IMG/VR virus record: IMGVR_UViG_3300030328_002602 | Coordinates: 4,662 to 24,945 of that record | Reading direction: 5' to 3' (one strand) | Source of the DNA: a virus | Length of the DNA: 20,284 nucleotides | Part shown: positions 3,475 to 16,846 of the stretch, piece after piece | Layout: every line of letters starts with the position of its first letter | Numbering within the stretch: position 1 is the first letter of the stretch | Notes under the pieces: model-generated | The model's input: only the letters and a program-made list of their open reading frames with translations | What the model was told of the DNA's origin: nothing | Databases searched by the model: none | Made by a program: the position numbers and the translations under genes

Positions 3475-5040
3475 TTATATTCTAGCTCCTGTAATCCAAT
3501 TATATCTTTTTTTACGCTTAAACCAACCTTCTTTAGTTTTCTCTTTTTTAGCTTTTCCAGCACCAGGATTCCCTTTTGCAAATTGAGTCGCTAACCAAAA
3601 TGCATCTATACAGTCATCATGTGAACCTTTTGGAAAATCCAATAATTCTCCAATAAACTCATGCATATTCTTTCTTAAATGAACTGCCCCTGCTTTAAAC
3701 ATAGGTTGAAGTCCTTCAAATAATCTATCTTTCTTTTTTTGGTTTCCATAGTTTTTTATACCTTTATGAATACCAGGAAGAAACAATCCTTCCTTTTTAG
3801 ACCTTTTCATAATATAATCTCTTAGCATCTCTTGATATGCAATGGTTTCAATATTTATTCTTCTTATAGGCGAATATCGTTTAGATATTTTAAATATCTC
3901 ATCGGCACACTCCATAGGTAAGACTCTTTTTCTCCAATATTCAAGAATGTAATAATCGTTATCAGAGGTAACACCAATAACCATAATAACAGAATAATCA
4001 GCCCTAGAACTAAGTGTACTGGCAGGGTCAACACCGATATAAATATTAACATATGGTCTAGTCCCATCATCCAATTCCAGAAACCACGAATCTGCTCCAT
4101 TATCAAATTTAATTTTACCTTTATAGTAGTTATCATTAATGTCCTCCTCTTGGAATATTTGGTCTTCTGGTGATTTAGCTTGGTTCATAAATTCTTGATA
4201 GAACTTACCTGCAACACCTGAGTCAATATAAAATTGTTTTCTTTCTTCTAGTTTCTTAATTGGCCAACGACTAGGCCATAAAGGTTTTCCATTATCTAGT
4301 ATTGCTTTGTAAGTTAAAACATCCCACGAATATTCTTCACCTGTTTTTTCAGCATCTTGATGACTTCTAACAATATTATTTAAAAAGCTATCATAATGGA
4401 CAATAGTTCCGTTACACCACAGGAACCCCCTTTTATCAAAGTCAATAGCAGGATACACAGCAGCTGTCACCCAGTCTTTAATATTTTGTCTAGAATCTGG
4501 AGTCTTAGTATTAAGCTCTGATTCAAAATCGTCAAGAACAATACCAGTATATCTAGTAGATAGCTGTTTTTTACCACGCAATCTTTGTGAAGCTCCTTTA
4601 GCAATCATTCTACACCCATTCGTTGTAGTAAATTCAGTTTTAGTCCACTTATCTCCTTCTAAGTCACCAAAATAATAATGTATTGCTGGATTTTCATATA
4701 TATGGTTTTGTAACCACGCTACGTTATCAGTCGCTTGGTCTTGAGCCTCACCAACCCAACATATAAACTCAGGTGATTCTTTTGTAGCGAATAAAATACG
4801 GTGAAGTATTGCTGTTGCTGCCATAGTAGACTTTGCATGGTCTCTAGGTAATACTAAAGCTAATTGTTGTACATCTTTATTTAAAAGCTTTTTACCCACT
4901 TCCACATGGAATGGGGGCGTCGCAGACGCCAAAAAATCCTGTGGGGAAAATAGTTTACCGAATGCAATTAAGTCGTTATACGCATGATGTAAAATTTCTT
5001 CATTCTTAGAAACATTACCATTAAGGTTAAGATTAGCCAC
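3475..5040 (-). CDS. terL: Terminase large subunit (packaging ATPase/nuclease)
   Basis: This 521-residue protein has both terminase domains. In the ATPase, a Walker A variant LPRDHAKST lies at residues 64-72 and Walker B TGIVLDDFE at 165-173. In the RNase H-fold nuclease, IYIGVDPAS carries D338, NIET carries E398, and SHDDCIDA carries D475/D476 and D479, which are the likely metal ligands. It pumps DNA into the prohead and cuts concatemers. AAGG lies about 12 nt upstream of the ATG. In this phage the large subunit is separated from the small one by three genes, including two cell-wall-enzyme-like genes, whereas terS and terL are usually adjacent. The assignment is secure from motifs and from the portal gene that follows. 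Confidence 0.93.
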   Translation of the reverse strand: MANLNLNGNVSKNEEILHHAYNDLIAFGKLFSPQDFLASATPPFHVEVGKKLLNKDVQQLALVLPRDHAKSTMAATAILHRILFATKESPEFICWVGEAQDQATDNVAWLQNHIYENPAIHYYFGDLEGDKWTKTEFTTTNGCRMIAKGASQRLRGKKQLSTRYTGIVLDDFESELNTKTPDSRQNIKDWVTAAVYPAIDFDKRGFLWCNGTIVHYDSFLNNIVRSHQDAEKTGEEYSWDVLTYKAILDNGKPLWPSRWPIKKLEERKQFYIDSGVAGKFYQEFMNQAKSPEDQIFQEEDINDNYYKGKIKFDNGADSWFLELDDGTRPYVNIYIGVDPASTLSSRADYSVIMVIGVTSDNDYYILEYWRKRVLPMECADEIFKISKRYSPIRRINIETIAYQEMLRDYIMKRSKKEGLFLPGIHKGIKNYGNQKKKDRLFEGLQPMFKAGAVHLRKNMHEFIGELLDFPKGSHDDCIDAFWLATQFAKGNPGAGKAKKEKTKEGWFKRKKRYNWITGARI

Positions 5041-6539: not shown

Positions 6540-6779
6540 TTAAGTTATTCCTCTTTCATTATTCATAGGCATAATATAAGTAACTCTACTGAGAAAGTCA
6601 AACTCAGAATAACAAAAAGGGCACATCCAACCTATACACTCTTCATTTTCGTCTAATAAACCCGCTCTTGATGAGTAATCTTCGTCAAAATATAGGTCTT
6701 TATCGCATACTGGACAAGGGTCTTTAGCTTTCTTACCCTTCTTTTTCTGCGTGTGCAATAAGCTTTGTTTTTTCTCCAT
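6540..6779 (-). CDS. Small zinc-ribbon-like protein
   Basis: The start is taken at 6779 because GGAGG lies 9 nt upstream; an open frame extends further (to 6854) but has no such signal. The 79-residue product has a lysine-rich head (TQKKKGKKAK). It then has two CxxC knuckles, C22-P-V-C25 and C53-P-F-C56, spaced as in a rubredoxin-type zinc ribbon. The function is unknown. Zinc ribbons in phage head operons can be structural or nucleic-acid-binding. It overlaps the end of the TerS gene by 47 nt in another frame and abuts the lysozyme gene. Confidence 0.7.
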   Translation of the reverse strand: MEKKQSLLHTQKKKGKKAKDPCPVCDKDLYFDEDYSSRAGLLDENEECIGWMCPFCYSEFDFLSRVTYIMPMNNERGIT

Positions 6780-7476
6780 CTTTAACAGCCTCCATTTGCT
6801 CAGGAGTAAAACCAGCCCAAACAGTGAGCTGCTCTTGTTTCTTTTCAGTGTCAAACAATCCTGAAATCTTAGCTAAAGATTCTAACGAACGTAATTTATC
6901 TCCATCACGTTCAGCTAAAGTAGCAATATCTTTATATCTACCTATTAACCACTCAGGCGTTACACCTTCATCTTCTAGTATCTTTTTAATTTCTTCTTTT
7001 ACCATTTGTTGAACCTTCTCTTTTTTTAAAATTTGTTGTGATTTTGTCTTAATATAGCTATCGCTTTTTGCTGAAGGATAAGCCTTTTTAAAAGCCTCTA
7101 CAACCTCCATACCAGAAGCTACATATTGAGCAAACATAAACTCTTTTCCATTCATTTTGTTTTTTGCGTATTGTCTTTGAGCATCATAAGTACCAGCAAA
7201 AGAATATATACACTCTGCAATACCGTCTTCACCTAACATATTTCTCTTTTTAGAGTTAACGAAATAGGTCCCACACACTGTTCTAACAAAAGGTTTACCA
7301 GCTATAAACCCTTTTTTAAGTATTTGGCATATATGGTTGTCATCAGTAAACGCCCATTCACCTTCCTGCGCTTTACGCCAAGTTTCAACCACATATAAGC
7401 CTTTATTAAACACTTCAAATTCTTGAAGGCTATCATACAAGTAATGATTTGTGCCTTTAATAGTTTTAAAATCCAT
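6733..7476 (-). CDS. terS: Terminase small subunit (DNA recognition)
   Basis: The 247-residue product is counted from the second ATG (7476); an upstream ATG at 7533 exists, but the 19 extra residues are hydrophobic and unconvincing. The C-terminal half (KEFMFAQYVASGMEVVEAFKKAYPS, with the helices around KIKTKSQQILKKEKVQ implied by the frame, and EEGVTPEWLIGRYKDIA) has the helix-turn-helix and oligomerisation pattern of Terminase_2-type small subunits, which bind the packaging site and regulate TerL. The first 110 residues form an extra domain with Cys residues (NHICQIL, RTVCGTYF) that I do not recognise. It is the first gene of the minus-strand operon. It lacks a Shine-Dalgarno; a -35/-10-like pair ends a few bases before the ATG. 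Confidence 0.75.
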   Translation of the reverse strand: MDFKTIKGTNHYLYDSLQEFEVFNKGLYVVETWRKAQEGEWAFTDDNHICQILKKGFIAGKPFVRTVCGTYFVNSKKRNMLGEDGIAECIYSFAGTYDAQRQYAKNKMNGKEFMFAQYVASGMEVVEAFKKAYPSAKSDSYIKTKSQQILKKEKVQQMVKEEIKKILEDEGVTPEWLIGRYKDIATLAERDGDKLRSLESLAKISGLFDTEKKQEQLTVWAGFTPEQMEAVKDGEKTKLIAHAEKEG

Positions 7477-7481
7477 AAAAT

Positions 7482-7510
7482 AATATAAGCAATAGTGAAC
7501 TTTTAAACAA
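7482..7510 (-). promoter_or_regulatory. Candidate promoter of the late (minus-strand) operon
   Basis: On the minus strand there is TTGTTT (7510-7505), a 17-nt spacer, then TATATT (7487-7482). Transcription from it would start at or next to the terS ATG, giving a nearly leaderless mRNA. This agrees with the missing ribosome binding site. In DNA this AT-rich such matches arise easily by chance, so this is tentative. Confidence 0.3.
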
Positions 7511-7566
7511 AAAATAAAAAATATTTTGGACATTAGGTATGTTTGTATATATATTAAGGCCTTATC

Positions 7567-7810
7567 ACATGTGTATATTGGTTGAAAACTTGTTCCGCAT
7601 GTGCTTTAAGTGGCTAGAACAAGGGGTATACAAAGTCACAGGTCAGTCGAAGGTAAGAAGGCCGTATTAGAGTTTCATTGAACTAAACATAGCTTACCCG
7701 CTTAATAAACAATGAATTATTAGGTATCCAAATTGCACAGGCTCCGAATAAGCAATACCAGGATAGGAAGCACTCTTAGTTATCTAAGGGGTAGGACTTC
7801 TCTATCCTAA
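7567..7810 (+). ncRNA. Structured leader-like region with tandem hairpins (strand uncertain)
   Basis: There is no credible open frame here, but there are successive perfect stems. CTTGTTC 7589-7595 pairs with GAACAAG 7617-7623. GGTAAG 7652-7657 pairs with CTTACC 7693-7698 and encloses AGTT/AACT. CTTAATAA 7701-7708 pairs with TTATTAGG 7717-7724, with one G-U. ATTGC 7732-7736 pairs with GCAAT 7752-7756. AGGATAG-GAAG 7760-7770 pairs with CTTC-T-CTATCCT 7797-7808, enclosing CTTAG-TTAT-CTAAG. The block is clearly less AT-rich than the sequence to its right. The single G-U pair slightly favours plus-strand RNA, but a 5' regulatory region for the minus operon is also possible. Confidence 0.45.
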
Positions 7811-7870
7811 ACACCCACCAAATAAGCAATTAATAGTTAACTAATAACTAAACAATACTTACCTAATTTT

Positions 7871-8297
7871 TAAATTTCAAAAAATAATATCAGAATGGGT
7901 GAGACTCTTTTAATATCACCCCGTCCCCCCTTATCGACTCGCTACCCTATACGAATTTAGTTGAAAATTTCGATTAAAAAGCGTTTTTTAACTACAAGTT
8001 ACTACATATTTATTTATTATACAAGATAATAATTAATTATTTTTATATCATTTATTACTTGCATTATATATATTATTGTATGTAAGTTATAGGTTTACCT
8101 GATTTATACATAAGTAAATTAAATAATATTTCCCTTGCTTTTTATGTGTATATGTATTATAGGGATTTTATTATTACTTGTTTATGTAGTGTTAAATAAT
8201 TTATTTATCATTTATTTATTTTTTTTCTTGCATATCTAAATAATAAGTAGTAATATATATTAGTTTAAATAATATAATTAATAGAAAGTTAATAATT
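7871..8297. other. Very AT-rich gene-free stretch with CTTGCAT-like repeats
   Basis: No gene is visible. Short motifs of the form CTTG(C/T)(A/T)T recur at 8057, 8134, 8177 and 8227, with a further copy at 8487 inside the next region. A small hairpin CGAATTT/AAATTTCG lies near 7952-7972. A divergent, AT-rich, repeat-bearing region next to the early genes could hold early promoters or a replication origin. The sequence does not decide between these. Confidence 0.4.
8228..8256 (+). promoter_or_regulatory. Candidate sigma70-type early promoter
   Basis: TTGCAT (8228-8233), an exactly 17-nt spacer and TAATAT (8251-8256) form a good sigma70-like pair. Initiation near 8263 would give a short leader before the small gene at 8298 and could read into the structured RNA region beyond it. 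The -35 hexamer belongs to the recurring CTTGCAT-type motif of this stretch. Base composition makes chance matches likely. Confidence 0.4.
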
Positions 8298-8486
8298 ATG
8301 AAAAAGTTTTTAATAAATTTAAATAAAGGTAAAAAGTCTCAAAAAGACTTATTAAAAAGATATACATATTTAAAGAATAGAGCAATAACAAGTTCTGATA
8401 ATATGAGTTTAAAAGCAAAACAAGACACATATATTTTAATTAAGTCTGAAGAGATTTTAAAAAAGTTTAAAAATAATAAAAAATAA
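8298..8486 (+). CDS. Small basic hypothetical protein
   Basis: The 62-residue product is lysine-rich (KKFLINLNKGKKSQKDLLKRY..., ending KKFKNNKK) and predicted helical, with no motif I recognise. Only a weak ribosome binding site (AGAAAG) precedes the ATG. Codon use is extremely AT-rich, like the surrounding DNA, so the frame could be accidental. In its favour are a promoter-like pair just upstream and a hairpin starting exactly at its stop codon. If real, a small basic protein beside a structured RNA could be an RNA- or DNA-binding partner, which is inference only. Confidence 0.45.
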   Translation: MKKFLINLNKGKKSQKDLLKRYTYLKNRAITSSDNMSLKAKQDTYILIKSEEILKKFKNNKK

Positions 8487-9190
8487 CTTGCATTATTAAA
8501 AATAATGTTTTAAGTTATAGTAGGTTAAGATAGCAAATAATAATAATAACCTAATTCGATACTAAGAATTAAAATAAGTAGAACATAGCACTGATTGAGT
8601 AAGTAATGTGTATAGTCTTATGCCTTGAGAAGTTTGAAGACTCAAGACCAGCAGAACACAAAGGTTGAAAGCATAACAAGTTGGGTAAATTTGAAGACTT
8701 AGAATATTTTAAAGGGATATGTTAACCATAGGTTACTAAGTATAGAGTTTATTAAGAAGTAAACGACGAGTAGAAAAAGGGCTAAATAAAGAATATGCGA
8801 GTTATACCTTAATATAATTCATAAAAGCAAACACTGAACCGAAAACTTATTGATAAGACCTTGTAGCAAGGAAACGAAAAGTGCAAAGATATATCTAATA
8901 AATATATACTTACTAAGGGAATATGGTATAAGTGGATTATAGCGAAAGAGAAGACCTCCATATATAACGAGCCTTAAACAATAGAGGTGTAGAGTGTAGG
9001 AATTTAGTAACCTAAATAAATCCTTAATATATATGCAGAGCCACCATAAGAGCCTACGGATTTTATGCAAAGAGATTTTTAAATGTGCGATTGTTGGGCT
9101 ATTTTATCCAAACCTTATTCAAAGAACAAGAACAAATATAAATAAATTATTTTATATGGTGTTACAGAGTTCGAATCTCTACTTGTTCTC
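8484..9190 (+). ncRNA. Large structured noncoding RNA candidate (~0.7 kb)
   Basis: This tract of about 700 nt has no credible gene on either strand but dense nested stems and purine-rich joining strands. Stems seen: ATAACTT-CATTATT/AATAATG-AAGTTAT (8483-8518); TAGGTTA/TAACCTA (8521-8527, 8547-8553); TTATGC/GCATAA (8618-8623, 8671-8676) enclosing CTTGAG/CTCAAG; TAACC-ATA-GGTTA (near 8725); CCTTG-TAG-CAAGG (8859-8871); ACCTC/GAGGT (8954-8958, 8984-8988); AGGA-ATTTAG-TAAC-CTAAAT-AAA-TCCT (8998-9024). It ends in a tRNA-like fold (9123-9189). TTTGAAGACT is repeated at 8633 and 8690. Size, phage setting and the tRNA-like end recall GOLLD and ROOL RNAs, but no conserved motif of those could be confirmed here. 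Exact ends are uncertain. Confidence 0.55.
9123..9189 (+). ncRNA. tRNA-like structure lacking a D arm
   Basis: An 8-bp acceptor-like stem, AGAACAAG (9123-9130) with CTTGTTCT (9182-9189), encloses a T arm. The T arm has stem CAGAG/CTCTA (9165-9169, 9177-9181, one mismatch) and the canonical loop TTCGAAT (9170-9176). A 7-bp stem ATATAAA/TTTATAT (9136-9142, 9151-9157) sits in the anticodon-arm position. Only five bases stand where a D arm should be, and no CCA is encoded. It cannot be a normal elongator tRNA. It could be a tRNA mimic at the 3' end of the large RNA or a decayed tRNA. Confidence 0.5.
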
Positions 9191-9194
9191 AAAA

Positions 9195-9285
9195 ATAGTA
9201 TCACTACAATGTCCATAATAGGTGGACTCTCTGATAAGTGTAGAGGTAGCCATTGAAATTCAGCAATAGGCTACCAAGATACTAT
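9195..9285 (+). ncRNA. Structured RNA module A (three-way junction)
   Basis: The closing stem ATAGTATC (9195-9202) with GATACTAT (9278-9285) encloses two arms. Arm 1 is CTACA/TGTAG (9204-9208, 9239-9243) capped by GTCC/GGAC (9211-9214, 9224-9227). Arm 2 is GGTAGCC/GGCTACC (9245-9251, 9269-9275) with an inner ATTG/CAAT. No bases are left for a gene. It ends 26 nt before the ATG at 9312, so it could be an independent small RNA or a 5' leader element of the early operon. Confidence 0.55.
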
Positions 9286-9311: not shown

Positions 9312-9518
9312 ATGGTTCATATACTAAGAAAATACAAATGTGAAGACACAGATGGAGAAATACATATTGTGCTTGATGTTGCCTATTGGGACACTGGACT
9401 AAATACTAACATTCGTAAATCCTTCATAGAAATCTATGATGGAGATACAACAATGTATATGACTCCAGGAGAATTAAGCATAAAATTAGATTTAGAAAAG
9501 ATTTATGCAGTGTTATAA
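9312..9518 (+). CDS. Hypothetical early protein
   Basis: The 68-residue protein is the first of the run of small plus-strand genes, preceded by AAGGAG 6-11 nt before the ATG. The sequence (EIHIVLDVAYWDTGLNTNIRK, then IEIYDGDTTMYMTPGEL) suggests a small beta-rich fold; I recognise no family. Good start signal, no frame conflict and the tight downstream gene support a real gene. Small proteins expressed first by phages often act on host functions, but nothing here shows that. Confidence 0.65.
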   Translation: MVHILRKYKCEDTDGEIHIVLDVAYWDTGLNTNIRKSFIEIYDGDTTMYMTPGELSIKLDLEKIYAVL

Positions 9519-10023: not shown

Positions 10024-10611
10024 ATGTATCATTGGAGCAAGATGAGTGGGAAACTCATTGGAATCCCTGCACTAAACACAGATACAACAAGCAATGAGTA
10101 TTGTCAAAAGATGAAGGACACAGACACAATTTGTGGAGAGTGTTACTCCTGGAACATGTTGCAGACATTCAGAAAGTCGGCAGTCCCGTCTTTTAAAAGA
10201 AACTCAAAGTTCTTAAGTGCAGAAGTCCACGAACCTAAATACTTACTGCCCGTGAGTAGTATAGTAGCGAGGTTTAATGGACACGGAGAGTTAATCAATG
10301 AAGACCACTTTATAAACATAATGAACATATGTAAAAATCAACCGAATACAACCTTTACACTATGGACAAAGAGAAAGGACATAGTCAATAAGGTATTAAG
10401 GACAAAAAAAATTCCGAGCAATCTAATAATGGTATACTCCAATCCAGTAGTGGATACGATAATGAAGCAAGTCCCAAAACATTTTAACAAGGTCTTTAAC
10501 AATGTCAGTAAAGACTCAGACAAAGTAAATTGTAGAGGAAAGTGCATAGATTGTATGATGTGCTATACAATAGGAAACAAAACACAACAAATAGTAGAGG
10601 TAATAAAATGA
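10024..10611 (+). CDS. GP88-like cysteine-rich phage protein, probable metal or Fe-S binder
   Basis: This 195-residue protein has eight cysteines in two groups: NEYC27 with C37-G-E-C40-Y near the N-terminus, and C170-x3-C174-x2-C177-x2-C180 at the C-terminus. The middle contains LLPVSSIVARFNGHGEL and FTLWTKRKDIVNKVL, then LIMVYSNP. The layout resembles the phage 'gene product 88' family, widespread in tailed phages and without assigned function. The C170-x3-C-x2-C spacing is that of a radical-SAM cluster loop but sits at the wrong end of the protein, so I do not call it radical SAM. Base composition is somewhat less AT-rich than its neighbours. The Shine-Dalgarno GAGGAG lies in the end of the previous gene. 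Confidence 0.65.
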   Translation: MYHWSKMSGKLIGIPALNTDTTSNEYCQKMKDTDTICGECYSWNMLQTFRKSAVPSFKRNSKFLSAEVHEPKYLLPVSSIVARFNGHGELINEDHFINIMNICKNQPNTTFTLWTKRKDIVNKVLRTKKIPSNLIMVYSNPVVDTIMKQVPKHFNKVFNNVSKDSDKVNCRGKCIDCMMCYTIGNKTQQIVEVIK

Positions 10612-16529: not shown

Positions 16530-16539
16530 TAAAAACTTT

Positions 16540-16615
16540 AGGCAGTCACTCACGTTCCGAATGTCCTACCTTTGCGACACTTCGCAACTATCTTAACCGA
16601 TGTGGGTGGCTGTCT
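16540..16615 (+). ncRNA. Structured RNA module G
   Basis: A 14-bp closing stem pairs AGGCAGTCACTCAC (16540-16553) with GTGGGTGGCTGTCT (16602-16615). Three of the pairs are G-U or U-G, which would be mismatches in RNA from the other strand, so plus-strand RNA is indicated. Inside is TTGCGA-CACT-TCGCAA (16572-16587), a perfect 6-bp hairpin. It fills the gap between the SSB gene and the next small gene and stops 11 nt before that gene's ribosome binding site. Confidence 0.65.
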
Positions 16616-16636
16616 TAACTTAAATAAGGAGAATAT

Positions 16637-16846
16637 ATGGGTAGAGCTATAGATATGGAAAACAGCATTGAAAAGCAAGAAAGAAGGATTTGGAAACTTG
16701 AGGGTGCTGTAGATGAAATGATACAATTACTTGAAAATCTTAGAATTAATGTTGAGAAAATAAGTAAACAACAAAAACAAAGGAGTGAAGATGTCAAAAA
16801 AAGTTCCAACAAAAAAAGAACTTCATCAAATAGTAACGGAAAATAG
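16637..16846 (+). CDS. Small coiled-coil protein
   Basis: The 69-residue protein has AAGGAG five bases before the ATG. IEKQERRIWKLEGAVDEMIQ continuing to LLENLRINVEKISKQ is a long amphipathic helix, probably a coiled coil. A basic/polar tail follows (KKSSNKKRTSSNSNGK). The role is unknown. It overlaps the next gene by 56 nt in another frame, which is unusually long for this phage. Confidence 0.6.
   Translation: MGRAIDMENSIEKQERRIWKLEGAVDEMIQLLENLRINVEKISKQQKQRSEDVKKSSNKKRTSSNSNGK

Follow-up and report, generated by a model that had tools for sequence, protein, structure and literature searches.

A gene-free tract at positions 8522-9189 of the window (the whole 20,284-nt stretch analysed here, itself part of a 24,945-base uncultured virus record) almost certainly encodes a structured RNA. 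Homologous tracts are present in two sister phages and, on comparative grounds, the three known phage members are a structured RNA family outside Rfam 15, in which the fold is kept and the letters barely. Judged by its gene-free length of several hundred nucleotides and its covarying structure, the RNA is of the broad kind of large structured phage noncoding RNAs; it shares that kind with GOLLD and ROOL and is a member of neither on the tests made. The RNA is probably a functional, independently acting noncoding RNA, irrespective of any involvement of RNase P. The features discussed below are collected in Table 1.

Table 1. Positions of the RNA, its structural elements, neighbouring features and homologous tracts (window coordinates unless a sister phage is named).
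Feature	Positions	Strand	Remarks
Structured noncoding RNA	8522-9189	+	~668 nt; 5' end inferred from promoter; homologous tracts in L002 and L003
Promoter-like site TTGCAT-17-TAAGTT	8488-8516	+	ahead of the RNA
5' hairpin AGGUUA/UAACCU, invariant AGGUUAAGAUAG start	8522-8552	+	start identical in all three; hairpin in consensus fold
Core three-way junction	8697-8741	+	6-bp helix enclosing 4-bp/9-nt and 5-bp/AUA hairpins
Hairpin with invariant CUAAUAA loop	8886-8911	+	3/6 pairs doubly changed; alignment anchored by hand
Hairpin presenting CCUAYGG loop	9045-9067	+	same motif on paired stem in L002 (748-781) and L003 (5210-5242); putative helix
tRNA-like 3' domain	9123-9189	+	8-bp acceptor-like stem, T-arm-like hairpin, further 4+7-bp arm
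Extra 3' structured module	9195-9285	+	z -5.09, 0/200 shuffles as good
Homologous gene-free tract, L002	205-883		679 nt; same locus, same 5' start AGGTTAAGATAG, same 3' domain
Homologous gene-free tract, L003	4602-5345		744 nt; same locus, same 5' start AGGTTAAGATAG, same 3' domain
Large terminase (TerL)	3475-5040	-	
Small terminase (TerS)	6733-7533	-	
Second noncoding tract	7545-7965		upstream of small terminase gene; letters strongly conserved in L003, L002 contig and L089
GP88 family protein (PF17338)	10024-10611	+	conserved in both sisters, L002 and L003

Genomic setting and homologous tracts

The window carries minus-strand genes left of ~7.5 kb and plus-strand genes right of 9.3 kb, the latter including genes for a GP88 family protein, a Cas4-type exonuclease, an Erf-like annealing protein and a DnaB-like helicase; the labels late (left) and early (right) were assigned by gene content. 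The tract lies at the divergence point, with a 62-aa ORF (8298-8486) on one side and an ORF at 9312 on the other. Terminase relatives are numerous in IMG/VR; those in the phage collection are all less than 60% identical (27% for the best among the matches listed), and no TerL relative was found among the genome contigs searched.

Two sister phages, L002 (IMGVR_UViG_3300030329_004267) and L003 (IMGVR_UViG_3300030329_003466), encode GP88 proteins 93-94% identical to that of the window (89-91% at the DNA level). The RNA body of the window shares 49-50% of aligned bases with those of the sisters, compared with 42-48% for shuffled sequence, and the bodies of L002 and L003 are 61% identical; for comparison, the TerS leader is 85-96% identical. 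The 3' domain shows 97% identity between the window and L002 and 82% between L003 and either of them. The three RNAs therefore look like mosaics, since the 3' domain pairs the window with L002 and the body pairs L002 with L003. The genes following the RNA also differ among the three phages. Highly similar neighbours, set against an RNA with almost wholly replaced letters and a kept fold, indicate that the RNA has a function and that selection has been unusual or cassettes have been exchanged.

The family has at least three members, as searched by conserved patterns, neighbouring proteins and models; this is a lower bound, because the searches reach exact patterns and fetched records, and records close to that of the window may be absent from them. 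The search with GP88 as neighbour revealed the two sisters and three more distant loci, of which L005 was read upstream of GP88 and has genes there, L004 extends 0.2 kb upstream only, and L006 was mapped for ORFs only. GP88 relatives at 54-57% identity were located in phages with other early regions. The Cas4 exonuclease led to no phages beyond L002 and L003, the 62-aa ORF, used as a route to more members, to no relative, and blastn of TerL and TerS relatives to no match to the RNA body, with matches to the AT-rich promoter stretch only. Models R1 and R2 gave weak matches, taken as chance, on 36 further related records; the best R1 match (23 bits, E 0.004 per genome) falls inside an ORF of L049 and of L048, a record related to it. 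Within the tRNA-like domain, an 18-nt core of its distal hairpin was discarded as a search pattern, since it returned mostly AT-rich background among the matches listed. A descriptor of the whole domain, applied to the loci, picked out the three RNAs themselves, a single tRNA-like sequence and four more that are unlike the domain. L089, the next closest phage by TerS, had been read as lacking the RNA; this reading was withdrawn because its sequence stops ~1.36 kb away from the start of TerS, and an RNA further out would be missed.

Conserved secondary structure

Hairpin density, which an earlier note on this DNA had offered as evidence for an RNA, is not above chance in the single sequence: the fold of the tract has a z of -1.74, with 1 of 20 shuffles as good, so that a count of perfect stems is no evidence by itself. 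The excess of structure appears only against the homologues. RNAalifold, run on automatic three-way MAFFT alignments with column-shuffled controls, gave consensus energies of -212 and -216 kcal/mol versus -150 and -152 for the controls (z -8.5 and -9.6). The reverse complement also scores (z -7.0 and -8.1), and the strand was consequently assigned from the promoter and the 3' domain, together with the direction of the genes. Left unguided, RNAalifold arrives at a consensus that contains both the junction and the 3' domain, with double changes at 30 of 101 pairs (few independent events, as there are three members only) and many broken pairs where the alignment is poor. The comparison of homologous loci, which had been proposed as a check, thus yielded covarying stems, namely the three-way junction and the acceptor-like stem in three sequences.

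All 45 cells of the core junction are paired, 9 of its 15 pairs are doubly changed, none is broken, and G-U pairs are among those kept; slid controls were 33-46% paired. As the junction structure had been written with all three sequences in view, a covariance model was built from L002 and L003 only. With or without filters, this held-out model matched the window exactly at the junction with an E of 4e-6, the next best match having 0.96. The exact junction geometry is rare, with 8 occurrences in 4.76 million strand-bases of loci, repeated copies of the three RNAs included.

A putative long-range helix (alignment columns 345-350 with 743-748) might perhaps close the 3' half of the RNA. A kissing interaction between the CCAUAGG loop and the CCUAYGG loop was rejected, as it has an A-C mismatch in the window and shows no covariation.

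A tRNA-like 3' domain

The tRNA-like 3' end described in the earlier note was confirmed by its 8-bp acceptor-like stem and 7-nt UUCGAAU T-like loop. The domain comprises 24 pairs with 97% of cells paired; three pairs are doubly changed, two of the compensated pairs lying in the acceptor-like stem and one in the 4+7-bp arm. A 22-nt stretch of the distal hairpin is identical in all three phages, contrary to the trend. The acceptor-like stem has 8 bp, not 7, and the 5-bp T-stem is complete in L002 only, with one mismatch each in the window and L003. The other two T-like loops read UUCAAAU and UGCGAAG, that of L003 being a variant. With no D-arm and no encoded CCA (CAA instead), the domain is tRNA-like, not a tRNA; it also has no anticodon arm (one further arm only), and ARAGORN found 0 tRNAs and no tmRNA in the window. 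A tmRNA was likewise rejected, as its acceptor stem would join the two ends of the RNA, whereas here the final 67 nt contain both strands of the acceptor-like stem.

A scan of the DNA from the RNA to the next genes revealed nothing like a terminator, which suggests that the RNA would be the first part of a rightward early transcript. Because this long, terminator-less RNA ends in an acceptor/T-arm stack ahead of an ORF, release by tRNA-processing enzymes is suggested, and the domain may serve as a processing or 3'-end signal (RNase P type) parting the RNA from the downstream mRNA. A comparable arrangement is that of MALAT1/mascRNA, a long RNA with a tRNA-like fold behind it as a possible cutting site for tRNA-processing enzymes; that RNA is eukaryotic and unrelated, and offers an analogy of mechanism only for the putative cutting at the tract. 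RNase P measures the acceptor/T-arm stack by distance, not sequence (PMC4919913). Cleavage by RNase P is not assured, given mismatched T-stems, an acceptor-like stem of 8 bp and the deviating T-loop of L003, and release at the domain is a serious possibility, though not quite the expected outcome.

The structured tract had been described as ending at 9190. This holds for the RNA itself, which extends to 9189, but not for the structure, as the adjacent module (9195-9285) also folds; the module is possibly part of the same transcript. In L002, a different stable module (887-957, z -4.0) follows the tRNA-like domain, and L003 is without any.

Promoter-like site and proposed early transcription

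The RNA would be transcribed early from the promoter-like site directly ahead of it. A promoter had previously been placed near 8228, but the likely RNA start is 8522, behind the site at 8488-8516, and the TTGCAT at 8229 would rather serve the 62-aa ORF. A like site with a spacer of 18 is present in the window at 8059, and in L003 the motif precedes a 56-aa ORF on the opposite strand; the exact TTGCAT-17-TAAGTT form is absent from L002. The site deviates from the sigma-70 consensus, and a generic sigma-70 scan, whose matches were not above chance, did not report it. Position and the repeated promoter-like motif make early expression from the RNA's own promoter plausible.

Close to the model with release is one in which the RNA stays in the mRNA as a cis-acting leader of the early operon and regulates elongation, stability or translation in the manner of an antiterminator or riboregulator. 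The terminator-less junction with the next genes would suit such a leader, as would the L003 locus, where 28 nt part the 3' domain from the next ORF and a predicted early mRNA has the leader start AGGTTRAGATAG in common with the RNA. However, the RNA is very long and elaborate for this role, its tRNA-like end suggests cutting, and there is no constant target gene, since the following genes differ among the three phages. We consider a leader unlikely, though deserving of real weight.

Composition, neighbouring DNA and coding potential

The tract had been described as bounded by very AT-rich DNA. Such DNA (14-20% GC) does flank it on the 5' side, but the downstream genes are about as AT-rich as the tract. 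DNA of 14-17% GC adjoins the tract at 8000-8400, and the minimum of the cumulative GC skew is also adjacent, as might be expected of a replication-associated RNA, for example a structured pre-primer comparable to ColE1 RNA II, at an origin within the AT-rich divergence region. Replication pre-primer RNAs can keep their structure while their letters diverge. However, a skew change is equally expected from divergent gene directions, the AT-rich stretch lies upstream of the RNA and not at its 3' end, and no origin repeats were identified, leaving a replication role quite improbable.

Hairpins might also act as DNA, as a cruciform or as protein-binding hairpins at a packaging or origin site. The small terminase gene is nearby, and the neighbouring tract 7545-7965 behaves as a sequence-conserved DNA site; it shows no covariation, with z -1.4 and +0.6 on the two strands (window, L002 contig, L003 and L089), and is a candidate packaging (cos/pac) or other DNA site. 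The covariation signal of the RNA tract is thus not shared by the region at large. Conserved letters would be expected of a DNA site, whereas the RNA body keeps pairs and not letters, G-U pairs among them, and ends in an elaborate tRNA-like domain, so we regard a DNA element as very improbable.

The earlier note had proposed a GOLLD or ROOL RNA, or a new class of that scale. Covariance models of Rfam 15 matched nothing in the window, either at the gathering threshold or at E 10, and at E 10 produced chance-level matches only in L002 and L003, with neither GOLLD nor ROOL among them; ARAGORN found no tRNA genes in the 23 related loci scanned. Despite a similar size, phage context and complex fold, a divergent GOLLD or ROOL RNA is therefore hardly credible, and it is the new class that agrees with a gene-free tract whose structure covaries in three phages. 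Searches of phage and plasmid records by DNA similarity gave no match, or short AT-rich chance matches, and word searches of the available literature, which can overlook a description, brought up none of the RNA family.

Decayed coding sequence or small protein genes that escaped recognition would account for an 80-aa ORF in the L002 tract, but are a negligible prospect beside the strong covariation and the results on coding, which agree with the earlier view that the tract has no credible coding frame: the longest plus-strand ORF inside it (61 aa, 9033-9218) has no Pfam match and no counterpart in either sister, no reading frame is common to all three phages, and the ORFs tested had no Pfam match.

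Possible role and comparison with known large RNAs

Under the preferred reading of an independently acting RNA, the freed molecule might act in trans to take over the host or to counter its defences. This speculative step, suggested by position and sequence turnover only, would explain fast-changing letters with a constant fold, and we hold it to be rather unlikely. Less likely again is the full picture of a modular phage effector RNA, with a fast-diversifying, structure-bound body and an exchangeable tRNA-like processing module, which would act as a first-made host-takeover or counter-defence factor with arms-race diversity.

Large phage RNAs fall into few described classes, and what GOLLD and ROOL do is given as still unknown (PMC12286853). 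GOLLD resembles the tract RNA in being phage-borne, several hundred nucleotides long and complex in structure, with a better conserved 3' part (PMC12286853), but its covariance model has no match here, and GOLLD often lies near tRNA islands, of which there are none at the tract. ROOL is likewise phage-borne, of complex fold and comparable length (PMC12286853); it differs in the absence of a covariance-model match and in its frequent location near tRNA genes, none of which were found at the tract. In contrast to the tract RNA, ROOL is not described with a 3' tRNA-like domain in the part of the source available (PMC12286853). A homo-oligomeric RNA cage is a further feature of GOLLD and ROOL.

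The ~800-nt noncoding transcript of ICP1 is also large and occupies an ORF-less space of a lytic phage without tRNAs (PMC7567579), but it adjoins the lysis cluster and not the head of the early genes, and has no sequence match to the tract. Phage K produces the long noncoding RNAs lnc001 and lnc002, the former from its own early promoter (PMC9241854); unlike the tract RNA, they lie beside tRNA genes in a Staphylococcus phage, and there is no meaningful sequence match. The tract RNA would add to these a class with a partial domain map and a putative tRNA-like 3' processing signal, and its place at the head of the early genes suggests when the RNA is made.

Sequences resembling the 5' element

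In L003, the segment 4015-4300 holds the 56-aa ORF with its promoter and the leader start AGGTTGAGATAG. Over 120 nt, this promoter and leader start share ~78% identity with the promoter and 5' end of the window's RNA, and the segment looks as if it had been duplicated in inverted orientation. Occurrences of AGGTTAAGATAG elsewhere in the sister genomes lie within ORFs and were taken as chance. A possible inter-ORF gap of the window (16530-16640) contains a minus-strand CGGTTAAGATAG, which differs by one mismatch from the 5' element of the RNA, and this same one-mismatch form is present once in each sister genome.
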